Source: Antedon mediterranea
Taxonomy: Eukaryota > Echinodermata > Crinoidea > Comatulida > Antedonidae
Assembly: GCF_964355755.1 (NCBI RefSeq)
Contig: NC_092671.1
Location: forward strand, 20,922,001 to 20,986,000
DNA: 64,000 nt
Direction of reading: 5' to 3'
Under the pieces are notes generated by a model, which was not told the DNA's origin, searched no databases, and saw nothing but the letters and a program-made list of their open reading frames with translations. Both the position numbers and the translations under genes were made by a program. Shown here one piece after another: positions 22,380-55,597 of this stretch (positions are counted from its first letter, which is position 1; each line of letters opens with the position of its first letter).

Positions 22380-23972
22380 ACAATCACATATTTTTGTAAC
22401 CACATCCCTGGTCTATCAACGCAAGCGGCTGTTGAAGTAATTAACCAACATTTTGCCACGATTTGTAGTGAACTTTCAGCACTTGACATTACAAAACTAC
22501 CAAGTTACTTACCAGCATCGGAACCCCCACCCGTTATCTACCCAGGACAAGTGAAATCTGCAATCGATAAGTTAAACATACAAAAAGCAGGACACCCAGA
22601 AGATCTACCGATCAGATTAATTAAGGAATTCTCATTTGAACTCTCTTATCCATTAGCGGACATTTTTAATTCTTCTTTAAATGAAGGTAATTTTCCTGAA
22701 CAATGGAAAAAGGCTACTATAATACCAGTTCCTAAGGTTCCAGATGCTAATAATTGTAATGACCTTCGGCCTATATCCCTAACACCCATTTTTTCTCGGA
22801 TATTTGAAAGCTTTTTAGCGGAGTGGGTAACTAATGATATAAAAGATTCTTTAGATAGTAAGCAATTTGGTTGTCGTAGAGGCTCGTCAACTTCACACTA
22901 CCTCGTAGACTTGATAAATTCTGTTGTATCTGACCTGGAGGGGGGTAGCAAATATTTAAACTTATGTGCTGTAGACTTTACGAAGGCTTTCGATCGTGTG
23001 GATCATAATGTTGTCATAAATAAATTAATATCCATAGGAGTGAGGCCGTCCATTCTTCCTACCGTTTGTAGTTTCCTCTTAAATCGCACATGCAATACCA
23101 AAGTTAAGGGAGCCACCTCTTCAAATTCTAATATTACTTGTGGGGTGCCCCAGGGCACGAAGTTGGGTCCCCTTCTCTTTTTGGTATTAGTCAATGATGT
23201 TGCTGAGGGAACTGACAGGCGGTGGAAATATGTGGACGACCTCACTCTTAGTGAAGTAGTTAGAAGTAGTGATAGCCAATTGTTGCAGGACACTTTAAAT
23301 CAACTTGATGATTGGTGTTTGATAAATAGAGTCCTCCCCAAGCCATCCAAGTGCAATGTGATGCGTATTTCCTTCCTAAAGTCCGACTGTCCTCCTCCCA
23401 GTTTCAATCTAAATGGCCATGATCTTAAATGTGTAAATCACATTAAACTGCTTGGTGTCACCTTGCAGGATAACCTTAAATGGGAGATGCATATTCATGA
23501 TATCGTTGCTAAAGCATGTCGACGTTTGTACACTTTGATTATACTTAAGAAAGCCAAGGCGCCTTCTAAAGATTTACTACAAGTATATACTTGCTATATA
23601 CGTCCTTTAGTTGAATATGCATGCCCTGTGTGGCACAGTTCAATTACGAAAGACCAAACTAAGTCAATAGAAAGAGTTCAAAAAAGAGCTCTACGAATCA
23701 TTTATGGCATGAACTATGTATCCTACGAGTCTGCTCTTAAATTGTCAGACCTTCCATCGCTAGTTAACAGAAGAGTCCAACTCTTACTGAAATTTGGTAA
23801 AGGAATAATAAAGTCCGATACATTTAGAAGCATTCTTCCACCTGTTCGTGACATTAGCAGAACCCTGAGGTCTGCGAGTAAGCCTCTACTCAAAATCCCG
23901 TTTGGTCGTACAGAAAGATTTAGATCTTCACCAGTCCCTTTTTTAGTCCGACTCATTAATGATGAATATTGA
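22380..23972 (+). CDS. LINE reverse transcriptase, open but 5'-truncated
   Basis: The frame is open from 22380 (just after TAA at 22377) to TGA at 23970-23972, about 530 codons with no internal stop. There is no convincing start because the protein continues upstream in the complete element. Seen in order: a pre-RT linker, the RT block KATIIPVPK...LRPISLTP, motif A AVDFTKAFDRVDH, GVPQGTKLGPLLF (motif B), motif C YVDD (most relatives have F/YADD), the thumb region LLGVTLQDNLKWEMH, and a C-terminal YTCYIRPLVEYACPVWH block. This is a jockey/CR1-group style RT; the clade is not resolvable by eye. The intact frame suggests a relatively recent insertion. With no endonuclease half it could not mobilise itself. 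Confidence 0.85.
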   Translation, partial: TITYFCNHIPGLSTQAAVEVINQHFATICSELSALDITKLPSYLPASEPPPVIYPGQVKSAIDKLNIQKAGHPEDLPIRLIKEFSFELSYPLADIFNSSLNEGNFPEQWKKATIIPVPKVPDANNCNDLRPISLTPIFSRIFESFLAEWVTNDIKDSLDSKQFGCRRGSSTSHYLVDLINSVVSDLEGGSKYLNLCAVDFTKAFDRVDHNVVINKLISIGVRPSILPTVCSFLLNRTCNTKVKGATSSNSNITCGVPQGTKLGPLLFLVLVNDVAEGTDRRWKYVDDLTLSEVVRSSDSQLLQDTLNQLDDWCLINRVLPKPSKCNVMRISFLKSDCPPPSFNLNGHDLKCVNHIKLLGVTLQDNLKWEMHIHDIVAKACRRLYTLIILKKAKAPSKDLLQVYTCYIRPLVEYACPVWHSSITKDQTKSIERVQKRALRIIYGMNYVSYESALKLSDLPSLVNRRVQLLLKFGKGIIKSDTFRSILPPVRDISRTLRSASKPLLKIPFGRTERFRSSPVPFLVRLINDEY

Positions 23973-41010: not shown

Positions 41011-41016
41011 TGTGTC
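41011..41016 (+). repeat. 6-bp target site duplication, left (TGTGTC)
   Basis: Immediately precedes the element's first base. An identical hexamer follows the last base at 51844-51849. Confidence 0.85.
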
Positions 41017-41231
41017 AGTAGAAGAAAAGGCACTTCAGTCCACCCTAGCATTTCATAATTACTTAATTAATTAATTAGATTTCCTGTTATTGTAATAATT
41101 AAATTATTCTTAATTAATGAAGGTCGTTCTTTTCCTGGTTTCGTAATAATTAAATTATTCTTAATTAATGAAGGTCTTTCTTTGTTTAGGGGCGTTATTT
41201 ATTAATATATTTATTTTATATTTAGATGGTG
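41017..41231 (+). repeat. left terminal inverted repeat of the Polinton-like element
   Basis: 215 bp, containing two 51-bp tandem units (TTCTTAATTAATGAAGGTC... and CTTTTCCTGGTTTC). The right TIR has three. It ends near AGATGGTG; beyond that the two ends diverge. Confidence 0.85.
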
Positions 41232-42718
41232 ATATATTATATATAATTATATAATAGTAGACCTATAACCACCAAAACGGTTTATTATCTATAGGAAATC
41301 ATCAATTGTAACATGCGGTAAACAATACAAATTAGTTGCGCAAATTATTAAAAAATAGCACAATTGTTACAAATGAATTTAAGAAAATAAAGGTGTACAG
41401 ATTTTATTTCGAAAAAGTGTAGACCTACAAACATAATTTTACATAAAGTGTACAGAATAAATTAACAAAAAAAAAAGGTCACACATTAAACTAATTCTTA
41501 TAAAAGCGTACAGTGTACTTTGGTTATCAGTTATATCAACTTTAGTATTTTAAGTATTAGGGCCTATTTGTGGCAAACACACGGTCCCTTTTAATTGTGG
41601 GTAGAGGCCTTTTGCCGTTCGTAATTCAAACTGTTCGTAAAATCGAAGTTAATATTCTGAGATTAGGCCTATAGCCTATGATTGTTCATTAATAAACAGT
41701 ATATTATAACGATAAAGAAACGAATGTACGATACACCAATATAACAATACAATAACTGATTAACTGAAAACTTGAAGTCTACTGTATTCCTACAATCATT
41801 CAAGTAGACATTTTTTGCTGAGTGTATGATACTTTCTCCAAAGAGAATTCGAACGATGTGTTTTCGGACGTGTTTCTACGGTTATCAGAACGGGTCAATA
41901 ATGAAAAAAAAAAAAAAAAAAAAAGAAACAAACTGCCTACTAACTCCCAAAAAATCAATACCTATAAATAAGCTGAACCTAACCCACTAAATAATCTCTT
42001 CCATACATCAAAATCGACCGAAAATGATCTGAACATTGAAAAGTGGACACGATCGTCTGTTCTTCTTTTCTGTTTCCACGGCTTGGGACATCCCTGTTAG
42101 TGATGTAGCCATGCGGTCTACACACTTATGATGATCACATCGCATAACATGTTCAGGGAACTTATTTTTCAACTCTCTGATACAATGTTTAAATACAAGT
42201 AGACTGGAAACCATTTAGGAACAGGGGTTTCTAATAATAAAAGTTGTTTAAAACTTTAGTTATGGTCAAGGGGAATTGTTCAAGACTTGGAGTAAATGGT
42301 CAAGACCGAGGGCAAATGGTCAAGACCGGAAGAAAATTAAATTTCATCATTTTATAAGTTTATAGTCACTTATTGTGTTAAAATTCATTTATTATTAGAC
42401 CTGTATACGTATTCAATAACAAAAAATAACTTTCTTACATTAATAACATATCTTTAGTGGTTAAGGTAATATATTATTTCTCTGTATACTGACGTCACAA
42501 ATATAGATAAAGAGAGACTGTAACTAAATGTTTATTACTTATTAGGGTTACAGGGAGAGTTCCATGCAACATTAAAAGATCAATTAATGAGCCACCCAAC
42601 TTAATTTGAGAGCCCCCAATAAAACGGCTGACCAGAGGTAATTGATTTTTGATGATTTCCTATAGATAATAAATTGTTTTGGTGGTTATATACTATTATA
42701 TAATTGTATATATATCAC
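41229..42718. repeat. inverted repeat pair inside the element (about 80-bp arms)
   Basis: 41229-41312 (ATAACCACCAAAACNNTTTA, TATCTATAGGAAATCATCAA) recurs inverted at 42640-42718. It may be a nested MITE next to the left TIR. The interior contains a poly(A) run (41904-41924), a short minus-strand frame at 42008-42214 with no recognised motif, and four short ATGGTCAAGACCG-type repeats (42264-42335). Confidence 0.55.
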
Positions 42719-42729
42719 GTTTTAAGCAG

Positions 42730-44590
42730 CATCACACTCTTTGAAAAACAACACATTTTAACCATGAGGTGTAGATAAAATGCAAATAAAATGTGTTGGT
42801 TTTTAAAAGTGATGATAAGTACACTTTTTACAAAATATACGAACAACCCGGAGGACTGCAAACTGTACGAGTATAAACAAATAATATAACTCTGCTAGAG
42901 AAACACTATCGATATTAACAAACGTAATTATAAACAATGAGATGGTGTACACATCGAAAAACATAGGTTACTGTATAACAATGCAAGAAAAACTTGTTAT
43001 CCCTATTATCAATTGTTTTCTCGTGTCGCTATGTTGACTTTAAAAAAAATGGTTTTATCGTAGGTCGAGTGCAAATTGGCAAGGTTTAGTTGAATGGGAC
43101 TCCCACACACCTCTCCCACACTCATTCAGAGTACTATTCTTGTTTGTTATGAGTTGTCAAGAAAAAGTAAAGATATAAAGGATTTGTGAAAAGATATTAC
43201 ACCTGATGAGTTAAATAATGTGTTGGCTAAAATGATGAGTGACCATCAAAATACATATCAGTAGACTTGTTACAGTACGGTACGGTACTTGCAGTATGTG
43301 CATGTGTTGCGACGCAATGCGAAACTGCTTTACAATTGGAAAACGCTAAACGCGTCTCCTGTGATGGACAAAATTTAAAGTTACTATAAATTCATAACGA
43401 AAATGATTTGTTTGGTGTATTTCCTTTTATTTTGTCTATTATCTATATAATAATTAATATATATTTATTAATGTGTACGTGTTTCCTTAATTTGTCATTT
43501 CCAGAAACTTCTACGCAAATCAGTAGCTCAGTTTTGTGATTGGGTAATTGTTCTTGAATGATAAACCGTTTAAAATAGTGACGTCATGTTTTTCAGCCTA
43601 ATATTGTGCCTCGATGATTCCATCAATACCGCCAAAAATAAACCATTTACTGCGGAACCCATTTTATAAAATGATGCTTGATTAAGGGATTTTTTCATCA
43701 TCTACGGTAAATTAAAACATTCAGAGAACTATTGGTAACAATCAATAAGAGGATATTTACAAAGAACCGTTAAAATGTAGGCCTATGTCGTTATAAGATT
43801 TAGCCTGCAAAGCGAAGAACAAGGCCTGTAAAAATAAAAAATGCTGCAGATTCATAAAAAGAAAAAAAAAGTCTCGGTAGATAAACGTGTAGAAAAAAAG
43901 TTACAATATTTATAAAAACCAAAGTAGTTCTAAGAATATCTAATGGCAATAACCTGCACGTAAACAAATTTCAATTTTTGGCTCCGGTTGAAGGTCTTGT
44001 TTTCTGTTAAAATGTGTGAAGTGTCAAGAAATACAATTGGTAACCAAAACGTCTTTCTGTATTCGATAATTATGATTTCTCTGAGTTTTTTTTTTTGCAA
44101 TTATGATAAAAGTAATATAAAATAATACACAGATATCGGTCATTTCTCACAATTGAATTCATAATTTTATTTACAATACCACTTACAGTAAAAATATCGT
44201 AGATCTACATGGTCTTTATTGTAATAATATTAATCACACACATTTTTAGATAAATCATTGATACATGTACGAAAATATGTGCTATTATTAGTGTTATTAT
44301 AACGGTTTTTTTTGTTTTTGTTTTGTTTAATCTACCAGTCCGTTTCAAACGTTACAAGTACCTATTACTCTTGAAATTACGATTAAAACGCTTTAAAGAA
44401 AAACTTACACACTTATTAAAAACATAAAAAATTGTATTTAACAATGAGAAATACATTACAAGTTACTTTTAAGAAATTATTCGTAAAGTTAATCATTATC
44501 CACACAATGACAAACAATCACATGATTATTAACGATCAATGGAATTAGGCCTAGATCTAAGTGAATTAACTTCAATACAATAATAAAACC
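42730..44590. other. no gene seen in this part of the element
   Basis: AT-rich with frequent stops in all frames. In a full Polinton one would expect replication and capsid genes in such space; none is recognisable. Confidence 0.5.
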
Positions 44591-44599
44591 ATTTGTAGG

Positions 44600-45330
44600 A
44601 ATAGCATCACTACGTTACGTTCGTTCCCCTAACGGGGTTTTATTTCCACAATATTTAGGCCTCTGGCCCTTATATCTTACATACAAATCATACAATAATA
44701 TTTTCTAGTTGGGTTGCAAAATAATATTTTCTATTTTCGTAAGCTAAATAAACAAAATTTGCTAAATCTTGGACTACTCTAGTGTTGCACATTAAAAAAT
44801 AAAACTTATTTAAACAAGGGAACGTGTGATAAAAATTAGGAATATATAAGTTTCTGAGTTCGGAATAATATGGACAGACTAACATAAAATGAAATTCGTC
44901 TTCAATAGAATTCATATTGCATAATTTACATAAACGGTTTTGAAAGTGGGATTTTGTTCCATCTTCCCTTTTCTATTTCCAAATCTAACACTCCTAAACG
45001 AAATTTTGTGAATATATTTTTACGTTTCCAATCTTTTAAGTGTAACAAATGATAACTTATTTCAATTTTCGTTTTAAAATACTTAAAATATTTTAGTTTT
45101 GAATGTAAAGAAAATTGTTCAAAATATTTTTGTTTTTCTAAATCAATCAGTCGTAATTTAAATTCATTAATAAATAATTTCTTGTCTTCAACCATTTGAT
45201 TGTACCAAACATAACCAAAGCCGGTTGAACAAAGTAAATGTTTTACCTGACTAGCCCAGCAATATTCATTTCTGTTAATTTTTCTTAACTAAAAACTGTA
45301 ACATTTAAAAATAAATCTATTTTTATCCAT
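44600..45330 (-). pseudogene. LINE RT C-terminal (zinc-knuckle) fragment
   Basis: Minus strand: WASQVKHLL and GFGYVWYNQ (about 45220), then KLRLIDLEKQKYFEQF, LGVLDLEIEKGRWNKIP and, after a 1-nt frameshift near 44935, LCKLC...IEDEFHFMLVCPYY. This is the conserved C-terminal region after the RT in many invertebrate LINEs, with a zinc-binding CxxC...HxxxxC pattern. A stop and frameshift make it dead. The 3' UTR-like part reaches about 44600. It is 5'-truncated and presumably inserted into the Polinton-like element. Confidence 0.75.
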
Positions 45331-45540
45331 GTCAATAATATGCAACCAAAAACGAATAATTGAAATTAAAAAATCGACATGCAAGGAGACTCTGCCTAAT
45401 TCTGTAGTTACGGCTGAGCTAGGGGCACAAAAATAATTCAACTGGTACTACTATACTAAATGAGAACAGATCTTGAACAGTTGATATTCTTGAGATCTGC
45501 AATCACTATTAAAGACTGTAATGTTTGCGTAACATTTCTC

Positions 45541-47325
45541 TCATCTTTTAATATCTCTAAACGTGAGATTTATTCTTGGTAGCTTGATGGATTGATTTTT
45601 AGGCAGTGAATGGTACCAGTACTCATTAGTGGGATAATTCATCATTAATAATGTACCGTGTTTAAGATCAACAGTTACTGGCTCAATGATTCTTTTGGGA
45701 CTCTTACCTCGCGCATCACCATGTCGAAATCTAAACATACGTGTTTGCCCCAATGATACAGAGGCGATTGGACTAAAGTGATTCATGTCTTTCTCATCAT
45801 CTTTGTGTTCGCCAATGTAATCACTTCCACTAGCATATCTATAGAGTAACGACAAAATACAATAGAAAATAAAATATTTTAAGATGAGACTAAAAAAAAC
45901 CAATTATCCATTAAAACAATCTTATCTAGCAAATTGCAGAAATCATCCAGTATGAATACTGATAGTGTTCCTTCGTTTTAGAGGTAAACGATGGAACCTT
46001 TTAATCAATAAATAAAATAAATAAATAAAATAATAAACAAGAATATTTACCGGTTGACCAAAACAAAATTGAAGTAATGTCCTGTAACCGATTTTAAAAG
46101 ATCGCGGAGATCTTTCAGGAATGGTGGCCACGGTAAAGCTGGTATTGTATTGCCTGAATATTTGTAAGTTAAGCCCGAATCGCCAAACGAAACCTGCAGA
46201 GGGGAAACCATACCAAAAAAAAAAGTCATTTATTATTTGGCGAGATGTAAATGAACACGCCCAAATAAAATTATTTACAGTAAAAGAGTAAATTACACCT
46301 ATAGCTAAACAGCTGTAAATAAAGAAAAACAAAGGAAACGATATACAAGTAATTAACAAGTCATTAATACAAAACCACGGATAAAAACACAATGGAACTA
46401 ACCTGTTTCCTAGGAATATTAAACCACTTTCCGTACACTTTCACCTTTGCAAGATCACCGGTAAAATAGTCAATCTCTTCCTCACATTTTTTAAACAATG
46501 TATCGGCTGCTCCTTTATCAAGAAGTTGAAGGTAATCACAGTCTAAATTTTTCCCTATTATCTTTTGCACCGATAACTTATCAGGGGGTAGCAATTGATG
46601 TTCTGAATTGAATAAACGTCCTCCATTATCGTTTTTGTCAACACCCCCTTCAACAGTAGCCGCATTATCACTACCAACCTCCTCAGTCATCTTTTGTATT
46701 TCACCGTGTTTTTCAATTATCTTGAACCACTGACTCTTTGGAAGGTTTACACCTTTTTTTTACCGGGTTTAAACTTGCCTCCTTCTTCAGACTTGTAATA
46801 GCGGCGAATACACACAAATTGTTCTTCTTTCCAGTTACTAACTACCACATGATTTATGTCCGAAAGTGGGATTCTTACTGCCTCCACCATGTTAATGTCT
46901 CTTAGTAAGTCTTCCAGTGACTGGAGAATTAAATTGATATTGTTAAAAAGTTTTTGCCACAGCAGAACGGGTAAATTAATACCTAGAGGTCCAGGTTTGA
47001 AGGCATCATATTCTTCCGTTTGGTAATACTCTCTGAGACAAACATAAACATCGTCACCCCATCGTTGGGCCACTACATGGCGTTTTTCAGACAAGAAAAT
47101 CCGATTCTTTGAAGTTATGGAAATCTTTGGTACATCATCGGTCATTACGGCAAAATACCAGGCGCTCATTCCTGAGGCTTTACTCAAACCGTTACACTCA
47201 TCTGTTTGACCGTTAAAAGATTTTCTAGGATCCAATATATTCGCTGATGTAGAAGCCATCGTTGGTATTTTTAAACTGCTACACTCGTCAGCTTGACCAT
47301 TAGAACTCCCCATAACTCTTTTCAT
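45541..47325 (-). CDS. two PC4 domains fused to ALKBH2-type dioxygenase
   Basis: Three exons: 47325-46403, 46193-46051 and 45838-45541 (stop), with GT-AG introns in matching phases. About 454 residues. Residues 68-140 and 149-215 are PC4 (SUB1/p15) domains, known to bind single-stranded DNA: both have a VYVCLREYY/FVCIRRYY strand and FKPG...GINLP/GVNLP...W. Residues about 270-454 are AlkB: KWFNIPRKQ, FGDSGLTY, FNFVLVNR, GEHKDDE, SPIASVS, WYHSLP, PRINLTFR. Fe(II) ligands H367, D369, H432 and 2-oxoglutarate arginines R444, R450 have the same spacing as human ALKBH2, which removes methyl groups from 1-methyladenine and 3-methylcytosine. A run of eight A (46754-46761) shifts the frame in the second PC4 domain; nine or six would restore it. 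The shift could be an assembly error, allele or inactivation. The fused DNA-binding role is inferred. Confidence 0.85.
46754..46761 (-). other. frameshifting A8 run in the second PC4 domain
   Basis: Upstream sequence reads FKPGKKK then stops two codons on. Downstream sequence reads GVNLPKSQW in another frame and continues open for over 110 codons into the AlkB domain. The breakpoint is an eight-base homopolymer. Confidence 0.8.
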
Positions 47326-47473
47326 AGTCCTAGGGGTTTCTCACCAATTGCTAATTTCGGAGTAGGTAAACAGTTGAAACTCATGTTTATAGACTGTAGA
47401 GAGTTACAGAAAGTGAAACGAATGATCGTTGACAACTCTGAACGATTACGTTTGAATCAGGTCCGATATATAC

Positions 47474-48072
47474 TGTAATATAATGTTGCGTTGTTGAGGT
47501 ACTAATGAAGACTCTGACTCGCTTGACTGTCGTAACACATATATTGTTTATTCAGTATAATACTTCAGTACAATATACAACTATAAGTATAGATAAGGAA
47601 CGGACGATCAATGATGCTGTCAGTGAGGTGTGAAGTGTGTAGGTCTGCTTCTGAAGAAGTGGCTGTGAGGTGTAGATGTTCTTCTGAAGAAGTGGCTGTG
47701 AGGTGTAGATGTTCTTCTGAAACTTGGGAGTATATTGGCTCAGTTCATTTGCATAATGTCATTACATCATTTATGGAGCTAATGATTGGTCCTAAGTTGG
47801 TCCAGGGGTGTTTAAGTGGGAGTGATTAACGGTATAATAAGGTATTTCTGTGATGGATGACACTGTCAAATCTGTACTTAAATAGTGTCAGTCACTCCTG
47901 GTTTAACGATGGGAAAAGTCACAAAATTAAGCTAAGTGTTTTCTTTAGGGATTCTATTATAAACTAAATGGTCATTAAAACATCTGGACTTTCTGGGTCA
48001 AGTTTGTGCACTTATTTGAATTCCGATACAAAGGTCGATTTCTTAAATATAAAAGTATATCGTTATATTACA
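47474..48072 (-). repeat. 3' LTR (left copy)
   Basis: 599 bp, TG...CA ends. Contains a 30-bp tandem duplication (GAAGTGGCTGTGAGGTGTAG). A 72-codon plus-strand frame is present identically in both LTRs and is antisense to the element; not considered a gene. Confidence 0.9.
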
Positions 48073-48969
48073 TCCCTCTGTTTCCCTTTTTTTTTCTAAT
48101 CTATTTAAAATATAAAAATGGTTATAATAGTGGCATGCAAAATTAAAGTTATATAAAAGAAAAAAAACATTATTATACATATAAGCAAAAATTGAGTTAG
48201 CCAAAACCATTGACTCTGAAGTGTAACCTTATCACTTTCACTCTCTCTCTTCTCTCTCTTAAAAAAAATTAAATTAAAAATGAATTTGGTATAAAATTCG
48301 CGTAAATCAAACAAAAATCGGTTAAAAATAAAAATACAAAACTTAAAAATAGTATGTTACATTGAACATACGTCAAATCGTGCGACAACTCATCGCATTC
48401 TAATGGCCTTCAAATATAAATCAATCAAATCAAAACATAAAATTCAAGAAACTGTGGCTGATTAGCCTAGAATCAAAATATCAAACTCAATCACTTAAAA
48501 CTTTAAAGAAACAAATGTGTGTGTCCCGTTGACACAAACTTATCCACAATATATCATTATCATCACAACTTTGTCGATTTAAGCATTTATATTCACAGGT
48601 AATTACGATTTCAATCAATCGACAAATTCGACTTTTGTACTCAATGTCAAAAAAATTACAATTAAAAGTACTAAGAAAATCTCCTGTTTTTGTATATCAA
48701 TTAAGTAATGCTTGAGATTAACGACTCAAAGGTTAAACAAAATATTTGTTACAAAATGATTGTCGTTCTTTTCAATATCTCAATATATCGATCATCAAAA
48801 TTCAAATTTAATCTTTATCAAAAAACTCGTTACAAAATCAATACTTAAACATAAATTCAATTTTCTTTTAACTGAAATCACATCATTACTAAACAAATCT
48901 CATTAAATACGTAGACTATGCTATTATTAATTTAGCAAATGTCGTAATTTAAAAATAATCTTGCAAAAA

Positions 48970-49440
48970 AAAATTAAATCAGTAATTCGTTGCATTATAC
49001 AAACGTTTTATGAATCGTTTTGGCGATCCACTTATCGGTATCTGTTTATCATTAATGATCTCTTTAATTAATTTATCTGTATCGTTATATCTGTCAATAT
49101 TCCACCAAAATTTGCGATCATTAGATTCGTGTTTTGTTTTATCGGTGTTGCGTTTGGCTGAAGTCGGTTTAGAATATGAAACTAAAACTTGGAAATGTCC
49201 TGCTTTAAATCTACCTCGGTTTAATGTCATATTTGAATCATTAGGTGCTGTCATAATTAAATTAGTTTGTTCCTTAATTTGTTCCTCTTTCATTTGGAAT
49301 GGGGCTGCTAATCCCATGTTATTCTCTACACAGTCAAAGTAAGGTTGTAAGTTAAGGGGGTCTATCTTAGTTGGATGTGTAAGGGTATCTGATTGCAATT
49401 GGGCTGGTGTCCTATCATGTTCGTCGATAAATTAAACATT
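48970..49440 (-). CDS. LTR-element internal protein, unrecognised
   Basis: The longest frame in the interior, about 155 codons ending at 48979. It includes YFDCVENNMGLAAPFQM, a basic SAKRNTDKTKHES stretch and FWWNIDRYNDTDKLIKE near the end. The start is unclear: a stop lies about 12 codons before QLQSDTLTHP, so splicing from an upstream leader is possible. No zinc knuckle, protease or RT motif. Might be a degenerate gag-like protein or a captured fragment. Confidence 0.4.
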
Positions 49441-49635
49441 GTTTTCGTCATTTACTACGTTAACGGTGTTCTGAATTTTCTCATTATTATTATTGGCGGG
49501 TTTATTAAACAATTATTTTAACAATTTAAAAAACAATTTTAGTGTGTATATATGTAAACTCTCACTTTTTCAATCAAGGTTACAAATCAAAAATCAAAAT
49601 GGTTTTGACTTACCCCAAATGCTTCGGATCCAATT

Positions 49636-50091
49636 AAAAATGAATTAAAGGAATGCAAAAAGTGTTCAAAAATGTTTAAATGTTCAAACAACAAATTAAA
49701 GAAATGTTAAAAGTGTTCATCAATGTTCAAATTTTCAAACAACGAATTCAAAAAAATGCGAAAGGTGTTCATCAATGTTCAAAAAAGTAAATGTTAAAAA
49801 AAACGATCGAAAAAAAAAACGGCGTGAAGTTGAAAGTCTCTAAACGAAACAGTTCTTGTCCGCTTGCTTCTGTTTTGATTCTTCTTGGGTCTTCCTCGAT
49901 TATCTTCTTTGTCTTTATCCAATGGTTATAATTTGATAAAATTTCTGCTTGTCTCGATCTCATTCAAATATAATTTCAGCTTGTCTTTTGTGTCTTCCTC
50001 GATTATCTTCTTTGTCTTCATCCAATGGTAATAATTTGATAAAATTTCTGCTTGTCTCGATCTCATTCAAATACAATTTCAGCTTGTCTTT
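49636..50091 (-). repeat. leader tandem repeats inside the LTR element
   Basis: About three 50-55 bp units with TGTTCA...AACAA words (49636-49785), then a 101-bp direct duplication (about 49889-49990 and 49991-50091, sharing TTCCTCGATTATCTTCTTTG). These lie between the primer-binding site and the internal frame. Confidence 0.75.
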
Positions 50092-50223
50092 TGAGTCAAA
50101 GTAAATTTCTGGTTTTCTCCTTTCAAACAAATATGGTTATTTTTGTCTTCGTCTTCGTGTCTTGTTAAGTGTTTATTTCTTGTTTTCTCACTCTGTTCCT
50201 TATGAAATTTGGGTCTTCCACCA

Positions 50224-50838
50224 TGTAATATAATGTTGCGTTGTTGAGGTACTAATGAAGACTCTGACTCGCTTGACTGTCGTAACACATATATTGTTTA
50301 TTCAGTATAATACTTCAGTACAATATACAACTATAAGTATAGATAGGGAACGGACGATCAATGATGCTGTCAGTGAGGTGTGAAGTGTGTAGGTCTGCTT
50401 CTGAAGAAGTGGCTGTGAGGTGTAGATGTTCTTCTGAAGAAGTGGCTGTGAGGTGTAGATGTTCTTCTGAAACTTGGGAGTATATTGGCTCAGTTCATTT
50501 GCATAATGTCATTACATCATTTATGGAGCTAATGATTGGTCCTAAGTTGGTCCAGGGGTGTTTAAGTGGGAGTGATTAACGGTATAATAAGGTATTTCTG
50601 TGATGGATGACACTGTCAAATCTGTACTTAAATAGTGTCAGTCACTCCTGGTTTAACGATGGGAAAAGTCACAAAATTAAGCTAAGTGTTTTCTTTAGGG
50701 ATTCTATTATAAACTAAATGGTCATTAAAACATCTGGACAAACTCTCCTCTGGACTTTCTGGGTCAAGTTTGTGCACTTATTTGAATTCCGATACAAAGG
50801 TCGATTTCTTAAATATAAAAGTATATCGTTATATTACA
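50224..50838 (-). repeat. 5' LTR (right copy)
   Basis: 615 bp, TG...CA ends, same sequence as the left LTR apart from about one substitution and a 16-bp insertion at about 50740. Confidence 0.9.
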
Positions 50839-50964
50839 ATACAGTTATTAATTGATTTTTTCCTGTCAATTGTTTCCCTGCAACATGTGCTAATTAAAGC
50901 ATTATTAACTTTTTGTTTGTTTGTTTCCCTTCAATCGTTTTCCGTGACACGTGCGAAACACAAT

Positions 50965-51566
50965 TTAAATTTCCTCGCACAACAGCTTAAAAATAGTCTC
51001 TGAATTAATCAGGGTATTTACAAGAAAATAAACGAAATGTCTATACCGAGGCAATGAATATTCTCCGTGCATATTTAGTTCGTTGTAAACGGTAACGGCT
51101 GAAACATACTTCATATCCAGAACCTCCCGATAAAAATAGTCAATCTGTTCTTCTAGAGATTTCATACAACAGAAATCATGATCTTTTTTACTGCTCCTGT
51201 CAAATTCACAACCATAACAAGCCGCTTTACTTAACAACCAACACTGGGCTAACACTTGAGCAGCAAACAATTGTTTAATCAAACGCTCCATTTTCAACAA
51301 AAATTCTCTCTCTACCTCGTCTACGTACGTAAATATACAACTTGTAGGCCTGTTACTCCTCTCGATTCCTTCATCTATACCGGCGGGGATAACCTCTTCG
51401 GCCTCCATGTAACGATCATCTATATCACTGCCTGGAACAACAGTGTATAGAAACACCTGGCGGAAATAATAATTAAAATTGACCATCAAAAATAATAACA
51501 AGGACAGAACGGAAACCCGAAATAATTAGATTAATTAACCTCCTGCAAGGACGATTTATAATCCAT
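50965..51566 (-). CDS. 172-aa protein of the Polinton-like element, CxxC...HxxC motif
   Basis: Two exons: 51566-51540 (nine codons from ATG) and 51456-50965 (stop), joined by a GT-AG intron of 83 bp in phase 0. The ATG lies only eight bases inside the right TIR, so a promoter in the TIR is likely. Residues 58-90 look helical (MERLIKQLFAAQVLAQCWLL). C89-x2-C92, then H102-x2-C105-C106 could bind zinc. It ends with an aromatic-rich segment (YRHFVYFLVNTL). I do not recognise the family with certainty; the helix-CxxC-HDxxC layout vaguely recalls uncharacterised invertebrate proteins. Before the LTR insertion only about 270 bp separated it from the PC4-AlkB start. Open and apparently intact. Confidence 0.65.
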
Positions 51567-51573
51567 TGCATAA

Positions 51574-51843
51574 CACCATCTAAATATAAAATAAATATAT
51601 TAATAAATAACGCCCCTAAACAAAGAAAGACCTTCATTAATTAAGAATAATTTAATTATTACGAAACCAGGAAAAGAACGAACTTCATTAATTAAGAATA
51701 ATTTAATTATTATGAAACCAGGAAAAGAATGACCTTCATTAATTAAGAATAATTTAATTATTACAATAACAGGAAATCTAATTAATTAATTAATTAAGTA
51801 ATTATGAAATGCTAGGGTGGACTGAAGTACCTTTTCTTCTACT
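51574..51843 (-). repeat. right terminal inverted repeat of the Polinton-like element
   Basis: 270 bp, 55 bp longer than the left because of a third tandem unit. Otherwise nearly identical in inverse. Ends ...CTTTTCTTCTACT. Confidence 0.85.
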
Positions 51844-51849
51844 TGTGTC
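51844..51849 (+). repeat. 6-bp target site duplication, right (TGTGTC)
   Basis: Directly follows the last base of the right TIR; identical to 41011-41016. Confidence 0.85.
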
Positions 51850-53452: not shown

Positions 53453-55597
53453 ATGAATGAAAAGAGAAAAAGTGGAGGGATGTACTGTGCTGCAATTAAT
53501 TGTAAAAGCAAGTCAAAGGCCAACCCAGAACTTAAGTTTTACAATTTTCCCAAAGATAAGAACAGGTAAATTTATGTAATTAAATAAGTACGGTAGCCTA
53601 CATCTTAACATATGCTATGTAGGCCTAGGCCTAGGGACTAATCTTACTTTACTGTATTCAATTTATACATATATTAATAAACTAGGCTAGGTAGGCCTAT
53701 TATTAATAATTATTATTTAAACGTATGAAATGATTATTATTATCATTATTAGGCTACTACTAGTACATTAGTTTTATAACAGTGAAATTACACTAATTTC
53801 ACTGTTCCCTGGTTATATTACTTATCCTTTAAAATTTAATACCCTTAACAAACAATTTTTGAAACTTTCAATTCAAGAAAAATCTATTGACCAAATATAT
53901 ATCATTACAATTGTTGGCAGCGCATATAAGTAAAAATTTGGTCGAAAGACTACGAGAAGCCCAATTGGCATGTCGCTGTAGGCCTAGTCCCTCTTTTTAC
54001 ATTATAGGCCTACAAATAATAATAATAATACTTAATATAAACAAATTGTGATCTTGATTATTTCATGCTTTCCGTCTCATGGTAAATATTTGCTTTCTGT
54101 CTCATGGTTATTTTATTTCGTTTAATTTAACTAGCCGTTACATACATTACAGTATATTAACGCATGAAATGATTATTATTATCATTATTAGGTTAGGACA
54201 TTAGTTATAATAACAGTGAAATTGCACTATTTGTATTGTTCCCTGGTTATATTACTTATCCGTTGAGTAGCCCTAACAAACAATTTTTAATTGAATCTTA
54301 TACTTAATATTTATGAAATTCAACCGTTAGTTAGTTAGTGGTTTTAGGTTAGGCCTAAGTACTTGATTTTAGGCCCTAACCAATTTAAAAATCAATTAGC
54401 ATGCACGTAGACGTCCTATAATTACGTAAACGTTAATTATGATAAAGCAAAAACTCACTAGACAATTATTAATTTACAGGTGTGCAAAATGGGCCCAGAA
54501 CACACGACGCGCGGATTTGAGAACGAAACCAAGTTCCTATTTACATCGTAATTGCCACTTGTGCAATATTCATTTCGAAGAATCTCAAATATTCGATTCA
54601 TGCAATGCCAGATGCATACAGAATACAAACATCTACAAACGGGCAGCTACACCTACGTCTATTCACGTCCAGTTCTGGAAAGATTGTTGCGAATGGATAT
54701 CTTCGTGGACGGTGAGTGACGGCTCGACGAAACAGATTGAATGTATCGATGGCTGGCTACTGACGATCAACGCGATGATCGGGTTGCATGACGAATTAAT
54801 CAACAATCACGCCTTTAAGTTTATACTCACAGGCAGACTAAATCAAGATTGCCTTGAGAACTTTTCTATTGTCAGATCGCTATAACCCGATGGTAGATGA
54901 ATTTAGAGCCTCCCTGAAGGAAGTTATGTGCAACAGGATGTTAATTCCGTTAGGGAATTCGAATTGCCTAGAAGACACTGATCGACAGCTAAATGGAATT
55001 GATGCAATAATGATGGCCCAATCATCATCATCATCAACGCCACAATCGCATCATGTTGTCGATCATGAAGACAACGATGCCACCACTGACGACGACTGCT
55101 GCTGCTGCTTAGAAGACTTTGAGATGACTCAGCTAAATACTTTAGTATATGTAGCCGGTTACGTCAAGAAAGTAAGTGTAAATACACAACTGCGATATCA
55201 GTGCGATGCGAGAAACCAATCGAAAACTGGAAGACCCAAAGCAGTTCTAACACATTTTAAGTCTTATATGCCCATCAACCAGTACAACGACTTCGGGGGA
55301 TTAATTATGCCTACTGACAATGTAGTTAATGTCCTATCTATCTGTGAAAAGATTTTTGTTTCTAACTTTAACAAATACTTACATACATCAAACATCAGCA
55401 GAAAAATAAAGTAAAAAATCGCTACCATGTTACATAGATTTGGTATGAAGTTGAATCTTTGTTCACCAGCAATTGAAACATTGCTAATTGAAACGTACGT
55501 AAACCTACGCATATTCTATGCTGTTAAATTCTTCAACAGAGACATAATCAGTGATAAGAAGAAGAGTAAAAAATTAATTAAAGTATCACATTTATGA
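53453..55597 (+). pseudogene. P-element-like transposase with THAP domain, internally deleted
   Basis: Exon 1 is 53453-53565 and the intron (GT-AG) runs to 54479; exon 2 continues open to 54884. The THAP zinc finger is complete: C12-x4-C17, FYNFPKD, W after the splice, CNIH, HF. About 30 residues after it the protein jumps to the late part of the P transposase: FWKDCCEWISSW, then FKFILTGRLNQDCLENF. The first part of the RNase H-like domain, with two of the catalytic acids, is absent. A frameshift after SIVRS leads to RYNPMVDEFRASL, FGGLIMPTDNV (to 55411), and another shift to FGMKLNLCSPAIETLL...FYAVKFFNRD, stop at 55597. Not a working transposase; the spliced THAP protein could bind DNA alone. 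Confidence 0.75.
53716..54290 (+). repeat. direct duplication inside the THAP-gene intron
   Basis: About 53716-53863 and 54155-54290 share ATGAAATGATTATTATTATC, AACAGTGAAATT.CACTA, TGTTCCCTGGTTATATTACT and AACAAACAATTTTT, with diverged spacers. Confidence 0.7.

Follow-up and report, generated by a model that had tools for sequence, protein, structure and literature searches.

A 64,000-nucleotide stretch of the genome of the crinoid Antedon mediterranea (contig NC_092671.1, positions 20,922,001 to 20,986,000; hereafter the window, with positions counted from its first letter) contains at 41017-51843 an element with Polinton-type ends, which carries a gene joining two PC4 domains to an AlkB-type oxygenase of the ALKBH2 kind. 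The best explanation, to which we assign a probability of about 0.72, is that the element belongs, as a broken copy, to a Polinton-derived family that is likely moved by the polymerase and integrase of full-length relatives, and that its fused gene consists of what is likely a PC4-PC4 gene of the Polinton itself and an ALKBH2 likely captured from the host, the product being predicted to repair single-stranded DNA of the element. The evidence comes from the ends and target sites of many related copies, from a 17-kb relative that encodes PC4-PC4 next to DNA polymerase B (PolB) and integrase, and from the placement of the ALKBH2 domain and its introns among crinoid genes. Polintons are regarded as a bridge between transposons and many of the DNA viruses of eukaryotes. 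The findings point to a Polinton lineage capturing an intron-bearing host repair gene.

The window element

The terminal inverted repeats (TIRs) of the element measure 219 bp on the left (41017-41235) and 274 bp on the right (51570-51843), with 98% complementarity across the outermost 61 nt and 96% across 156 nt more. The termini, AGTAGAAG...CTTCTACT, are of the AG... type, and both TIRs are directly abutted by TGTGTC (41011-41016 and 51844-51849), an exact 6-bp duplication. Inverted ends and identical flanking hexamers had been claimed in a sequence-only reading of this DNA, and both proved real. So did its PC4-PC4-AlkB gene: on the minus strand, PC4 is found in two stretches (E = 1.8e-17), and a 2-oxoglutarate (2OG)-Fe(II) oxygenase domain (PF13532) scores E = 2.9e-20, its nearest relatives being ALKBH2 proteins. 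Two introns interrupt the AlkB part (by-eye exon ends: 46403, 46193/46051 and 45838), and the frame of the window copy is broken in a run of A around 46747-46759, between the second PC4 and AlkB. The layout is as follows (ORF, open reading frame; LTR, long terminal repeat):

41011-41016, no strand: left target-site duplication, TGTGTC
41017-41235, plus strand: left TIR, starting with AGTAGAAG, with internal 51-bp repeats; recurs in the genome
41236-44610, no strand: middle of the element, with piecewise matches of ~87-99% in those other PC4-AlkB elements that were read
43028-43428, plus strand: diverged stretch, for which no open gene is claimed, related at 36-45% to Bcl-2-like ORFs in the C8 elements and the full-length one
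44611-45427, minus strand: ~816 bp found in the window copy and skipped when it is matched to the other copies compared; a later insertion
45541-46403, minus strand: ALKBH2 part of the fusion gene (end of exon A, to 46403; exon 46051-46193; exon 45541-45838)
46404-47325, minus strand: tandem PC4-PC4, linker and AlkB start, all in the first exon of the fusion gene
47474-50838, no strand: nested LTR element, outside the Polinton-type element proper; LTRs at 47474-48072 and 50224-50838, ATAC duplication
50965-51441, minus strand: small gene adjoining the right end, with ~88-98% homologues in the corresponding position of other elements, the full-length C9 element among them
51570-51843, minus strand: right TIR
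51844-51849, no strand: right target-site duplication, TGTGTC

The 51-bp tandem repeats within the TIRs (41080-41181 and 51622-51798) are unequal in number on the two sides. We take the insertion at 44611-45427 to resemble the tail of a long interspersed nuclear element (LINE). The nested LTR element, ~3.4 kb long, separates the fusion gene from the small gene; one substitution and a 16-bp indel are all that distinguishes its two LTRs, its borders at 47474-50838 carry a 4-bp ATAC duplication, and it has one 139-aa ORF without significant Pfam match. Since it is nested, the Polinton-type element must be older than the LTR insertion. It also explains the ORF at 48979-49398, which we rejected as cargo because it sits inside this young LTR element. 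The second gene that is the element's own is the one at 50965-51441. Among 55 protein-database candidates for homologues of the small gene none reached E<=1, and none was found in viral contigs either.

Neither tblastn searches (E 0.01) with the proteins of two related elements, C9 and C3i, nor a domain scan of a set of window ORFs detected PolB, integrase, ATPase or capsid-like genes in the window element. The earlier statement that no core Polinton gene is visible therefore stands for these genes, with the addition that the diverged Bcl-2-like-related stretch is present. Lacking PolB, integrase, ATPase and capsid genes of its own, the element is filed as a non-autonomous derivative and not as a Polinton. 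The window copy is a relic, as seen from its frame break, nested LTR element, 816-bp insertion, diverged Bcl-2-like stretch and unmatched core genes.

A full-length relative

The element at C9:13250080-13267053 (in these coordinates the window is C2:20922001-20986000) is 17 kb long, has AGTAGTAAAAG ends and is flanked by an exact TAGGAT duplication. Its order is end, small gene, PC4-PC4, integrase, two capsid-like ORFs, a 193-aa ORF, ATPase-like, Bcl-2-like, PolB, two small ORFs, end. PolB belongs to the viral/organellar family B (two ORFs match PF03175, at E = 2.2e-17 and 4.7e-8), and the integrase combines an rve core (1.6e-12) with a chromodomain (1.2e-8). The ATPase-like ORF has a weak Pox_A32 match (3.4e-4; its 20.6 bits fall below the 22.8 required) and a terminase PHROG match at 0.0085. 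A 428-aa ORF may be capsid-like, judging by its position. The proposed check whether full-length relatives encode PolB, integrase and major capsid protein came out positive for PolB and integrase; for the capsid there was no match. A search for the C9 PolB in viral contigs gave no result.

The PC4-PC4 gene of the C9 element has the PC4 domain twice (3.8e-22) and no AlkB; its protein is 74% identical to that of the window and stops near the point where AlkB starts in the fusion. Its relatives, three matches among 93 candidates, are all from Antedon. A second stretch in which an end is followed by the small gene, PC4-PC4 and integrase is located at C10:12.39 Mb. Because the 17-kb relative encodes PC4-PC4 without AlkB beside PolB and integrase, PC4-PC4 appears to be the Polinton's own gene, to which ALKBH2 was likely added. 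The sequence-only reading had taken the entire repair fusion for cargo of a mobile element; ends, hexamers and copies support the mobile element, and the cargo now seems to be confined to ALKBH2.

A weak Bcl-2-family match is present in the full-length Polinton (L038:2447-2971, E = 0.0018), and related stretches occur in the C8 elements (L042:3416-3859), in PC4-AlkB elements and in the window at 43028-43428. Based on this similarity, the ORF is possibly an apoptosis-control gene.

Copies of the gene and of the ends

In the 354-Mb assembly (18 contigs), AlkB exon 4 is found at 17 loci, nine of which are inverted pairs. The search returned 47 matches, 25 of them at >=92% and spanning 100-103 of 103 residues (21 are stop-free); these were counted together with two pieces of one further broken copy on C8, which is included in the 17 loci. 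The 20 uncounted matches comprise eight at 79-90%, three that are weaker or short (62%, 72%, and 82% over 88 residues) and nine at 36-42%. The eight represent host-like and stand-alone ALKBH2 genes plus the pieces at C6:26.87 Mb, a broken exon 4 copy in two pieces (88-90%) that may be an 18th locus and was left uncounted.

Copies of the ends elsewhere do carry the gene, as the sequence-only reading had suggested checking: PC4 adjoins AlkB in all 11 modules, at the eight loci with letters read. The order end, small gene, PC4-PC4, AlkB is found at seven of these eight loci; in the eighth, the C8 copy, the small gene had no match. An end sequence lies near 14 of the 17 exon 4 loci, at 10 of which the end is among the left-end matches listed. 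The other four are C9:17.5, C4:35.6 and C6:27.4 Mb, which have AGTAG-type inverted ends, and C11:12.5 Mb, where a stretch matches an end at 74%. For C9:9.42, C3:17.36 and C3:31.22 Mb there was no end among the left-end matches listed.

The genome search with the left end, likewise suggested earlier, gave at least 79 matches. Exact 6-bp duplications flank 13 of the 17 pairs in which both ends were read (window included), and the 13 hexamers are all different: TGTGTC (window), CACATC, TAGGAT, CTTGTG, CGTGTC, TAAAAG, TCCATC, AATTAA, AATGTT, AGAGAG, CACCCC, CAGGTA and AGCGCT. For AlkB carriers with both ends read, which have AGTAG-type ends, the exact hexamer is present in 8 of 11; in five of the 11 (C4:35.6, C6:27.4, C3:14.45, C11:12.5 and C9:17.5 Mb) exon 4 and the ends are what was seen. 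Both the 13/17 and the 8/11 include AGCGCT, a hexamer identified by eye in the flanks, which weighs little because it is self-complementary. No empty site with a single TGTGTC, another proposed check, was found within the window and the fetched loci.

Origin of the ALKBH2 part

In the phylogenetic tree, the AlkB domains of the fusion form a clade (support 97/97) nested within a crinoid ALKBH2 clade (100/99) of Antedon and Anneissia genes. Both intron positions of the fusion, with their phases, recur in an ALKBH2 gene at C1:31.30 Mb, and the same positions are found in the host-like ALKBH2 at C3:18.04 Mb as far as it was read (the end of exon 2 was unread). Introns at positions common to the fusion and crinoid ALKBH2 suggest that genomic DNA rather than cDNA was captured, and ALKBH2 was thus likely taken from the host in this form. 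This host-like gene stands apart from the repeated fusion and has no PC4 in the stretch read; no such ends were present in the 2 kb read around it or among the left-end matches listed.

The locus at C1:31.30 Mb encodes a stand-alone ALKBH2 (P0005) as an inverted pair that is bounded by AGTAG ends and flanked by AATGTT as an exact duplication. Its leader is 97-99% identical to a subterminal stretch of the PolB-bearing C3i element and of the C8 elements, and by this sequence identity the locus is a second arrangement, in which the other Polinton end is followed by a lone ALKBH2. The tree joins the stand-alone ALKBH2 to that of the fusion (84/88); two alternative trees were not rejected (p-AU, approximately unbiased test, 0.18 and 0.12).

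The fusion protein and selection on it

An annotated Antedon mediterranea protein, P0001, has AlkB joined in frame to PC4-PC4; it shares residues 1-283 without a difference with an ORF at C2:34.22 Mb. For residues 225-425 the match to solved ALKBH2 has E = 9.6e-72, and the match to solved PC4 has E = 9.4e-5. The H, D and R residues at what we take to be the metal- and 2OG-binding positions are aligned between P0001 and solved ALKBH2. The predicted fold of P0001, based on eight alignment rows, had a pLDDT (predicted local distance difference test score) of 37 and was not used. From domain membership, the PC4 domains are predicted to bind single-stranded DNA and the ALKBH2 part is predicted to repair N1-methyladenine and N3-methylcytosine in DNA.

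For AlkB, likelihood tests of the ratio of nonsynonymous to synonymous substitution rates (dN/dS) against 1 gave p = 0.014 with nine rows and p = 0.018 with the five rows whose AlkB part has no stop or gap. Ten module rows were built, seven loci of which entered the pooled dN/dS (AlkB 0.42, PC4 0.57); four loci, including the broken C3d copy with two stops and four missing bases, gave 0.36 for AlkB and 0.31 for PC4. These estimates rest on few changes, and palindrome arms, like the pooled pairs, are non-independent. The tests show apparent purifying selection on the AlkB part.

Palindromic carriers

In several carriers the small gene-PC4-AlkB half is doubled as a palindrome, as if half of a Polinton had been duplicated. 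The arms are 98.9-99.9% identical over 2.7-4.3 kb in C2b, C10, C3d, the PolB-bearing C3i and two C8 elements. In C5 the arm match extends over only 468 bp at 97.7% (for the pieces compared), and the C9 element has none. In C10 the central part, too, forms an inverted repeat (98.9%). Could the palindromes be artefacts of assembly? In C3d the inverted identity extends past the ends into the flanks, as an artefact would allow. Arms of C2b and C10, on the other hand, do differ (98.9% and 99.7%), their outer flanks are unlike and an exact duplication is present, so that we regard an artefact as very improbable. The likeliest origin, by analogy, is fold-back of a strand displaced in protein-primed copying.

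Two further observations concern palindromes. At C3:21.743-21.757 Mb (L045-L047) the opposite, PolB-bearing Polinton half forms a palindrome with PolB ORFs in both arms and a TAAAAG duplication. The C8 palindromes (L042, L044, L040, L041) encode an uncharacterised 264-aa protein and an integrase fragment.

Proposed mechanism and alternative explanations

Protein-primed copying displaces single strands, PC4 binds single-stranded DNA, and N1-methyladenine and N3-methylcytosine, which arise mainly in single-stranded DNA, are reversed by ALKBH2. The following scenario may be proposed. Crinoid ALKBH2 genomic DNA would have been joined behind the PC4-PC4 gene of a Polinton. During protein-primed copying, the displaced single strand would at times fold back, yielding palindromes and elements with two like ends, for which relatives like the C9 element could supply the proteins needed for copying and insertion. 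The PC4 domains would keep the fusion bound to the displaced single strands, and there ALKBH2 would reverse the two lesions; the fusion would thereby place a repair enzyme where damage arises. A protein-primed polymerase is described for Polintons (PMC11071308). A more far-reaching version, in which the single-strand binder and ALKBH2 form a replication-coupled repair machine of a virus-like element and the fold-back half-Polinton palindromes are an independent satellite family spreading the gene, we put forward only tentatively, as somewhat less probable than an even bet.

Several results weigh against the reading as a Polinton-derived family with an acquired repair domain. Several carriers are broken. 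Among the 17 end pairs, the C3a duplication is off by one base and three pairs (C3d, C4:32.03 Mb and C11:12.52 Mb) have no duplication. In the C9 element PolB is spread over several ORFs, the 428-aa capsid-like ORF yielded no Pfam or PHROG match, no meaningful PDB match and no viral-contig result (fold pLDDT 33), and no Ulp1/adenovirus-type protease was found among the ten ORFs scanned. AlkB might have been lost from the C9 lineage instead of being gained by the others, and the stand-alone ALKBH2 might have been captured separately. The likelihood test for PC4 was not significant against 1 (p = 0.13, nine rows). Finally, vertebrate Mavericks are described with intronless ORFs (PMC8097293), as opposed to the introns of the PC4-ALKBH2 gene.

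The broken copies, that of the window included, and the lack of significant constraint on the PC4 part would also suit ALKBH2 being passenger DNA, a chance catch spread by movement of the element and of no benefit to it. Against this speak the constraint on AlkB (p = 0.014 and 0.018), the absence of a stop in 21 of the 25 near-full exon 4 matches, the in-frame fusion annotated as P0001 and the second ALKBH2 arrangement on another element type; a mere passenger is thus unlikely, if still the most serious competitor. Alternatively, the fusion could act on the host side, stripping methyl marks from RNA or DNA of the element and so countering silencing. Such a role has been proposed for the AlkB domain of orchid Gypsy elements (PMC9289625). 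Here, however, the domain is ALKBH2 by both match and tree and not of the RNA-demethylase type, and its PC4 partners point to single-stranded DNA, which makes this role rather improbable. It is hardly credible, in turn, that PC4-PC4-ALKBH2 is a host gene family amplified by segmental duplication, with the ends a dispersed repeat flanking it by chance. The introns, the occurrence of the end sequence away from the gene and the continuation of inverted identity into the C3d flanks would fit. Opposed to them are the paired ends with exact, differing hexamers, the same order of small gene and PC4-PC4 in an element that also encodes PolB and integrase, and the host-like ALKBH2 elsewhere, with no ends seen nearby and no PC4 in the stretch read. 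An interpretation as a host gene and nothing else was rejected, as the copies travel with ends and hexamers.

Relation to known systems

Several of the ingredients have been described before: Polintons themselves, the capture of host genes, giant-virus oxygenases of the PF13532 family (PMC10598087) and the AlkB domain of an LTR element (PMC9289625). With Polinton/Maverick elements (Polintoviricetes) the family shares AGTAG ends and 6-bp duplications and, in the full-length relative, PolB and an rve integrase with chromodomain. It differs in that the window element is without those core genes, in its end-proximal, intron-bearing PC4-PC4-ALKBH2 fusion and in the palindromic structure of several copies. 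The orchid Ty3/Gypsy elements (PMC9289625) are likewise mobile elements that gained an AlkB-type dioxygenase, but of RNA-demethylase type and in an LTR retrotransposon, whereas here a DNA-repair ALKBH2 fused to PC4 sits in a Polinton-type DNA element. Giant viruses are a DNA virus group with captured PF13532 oxygenases (PMC10598087); the passages found there concern giant viruses alone and mention no Polintons with AlkB, PC4 fusion or intron-bearing ALKBH2. Snapback genomes of adeno-associated virus (AAV) also have part of the genome in snapback configuration (PMC8235507), but arise in parvovirus replication, which is not protein-primed, whereas the doubled forms described here are integrated and multi-copy. 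Compared with animal ALKBH2, the catalytic domain and intron positions are alike, whereas the fusion has two PC4 domains replacing the host N-terminus and is multi-copy in elements.

We found no report of AlkB or PC4 in Polintons in the part of the open-licence literature searched by titles and starts of abstracts, and papers naming both Polinton and AlkB did not join the two in the passages found. To our knowledge, Polinton replication in animals has had no experimental test. The family offers testable handles on whether protein-primed copying exposes damage-prone single strands and whether fold-back genomes arise and spread.

Other features of the window

Outside the element, a remnant at 54439-55414 contains a THAP domain (E = 2.3e-5) and another ORF, and is presumably P-element-like. 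At 22551-23972 a LINE-like 473-aa reverse-transcriptase ORF is present (PF00078, E = 1.9e-21).

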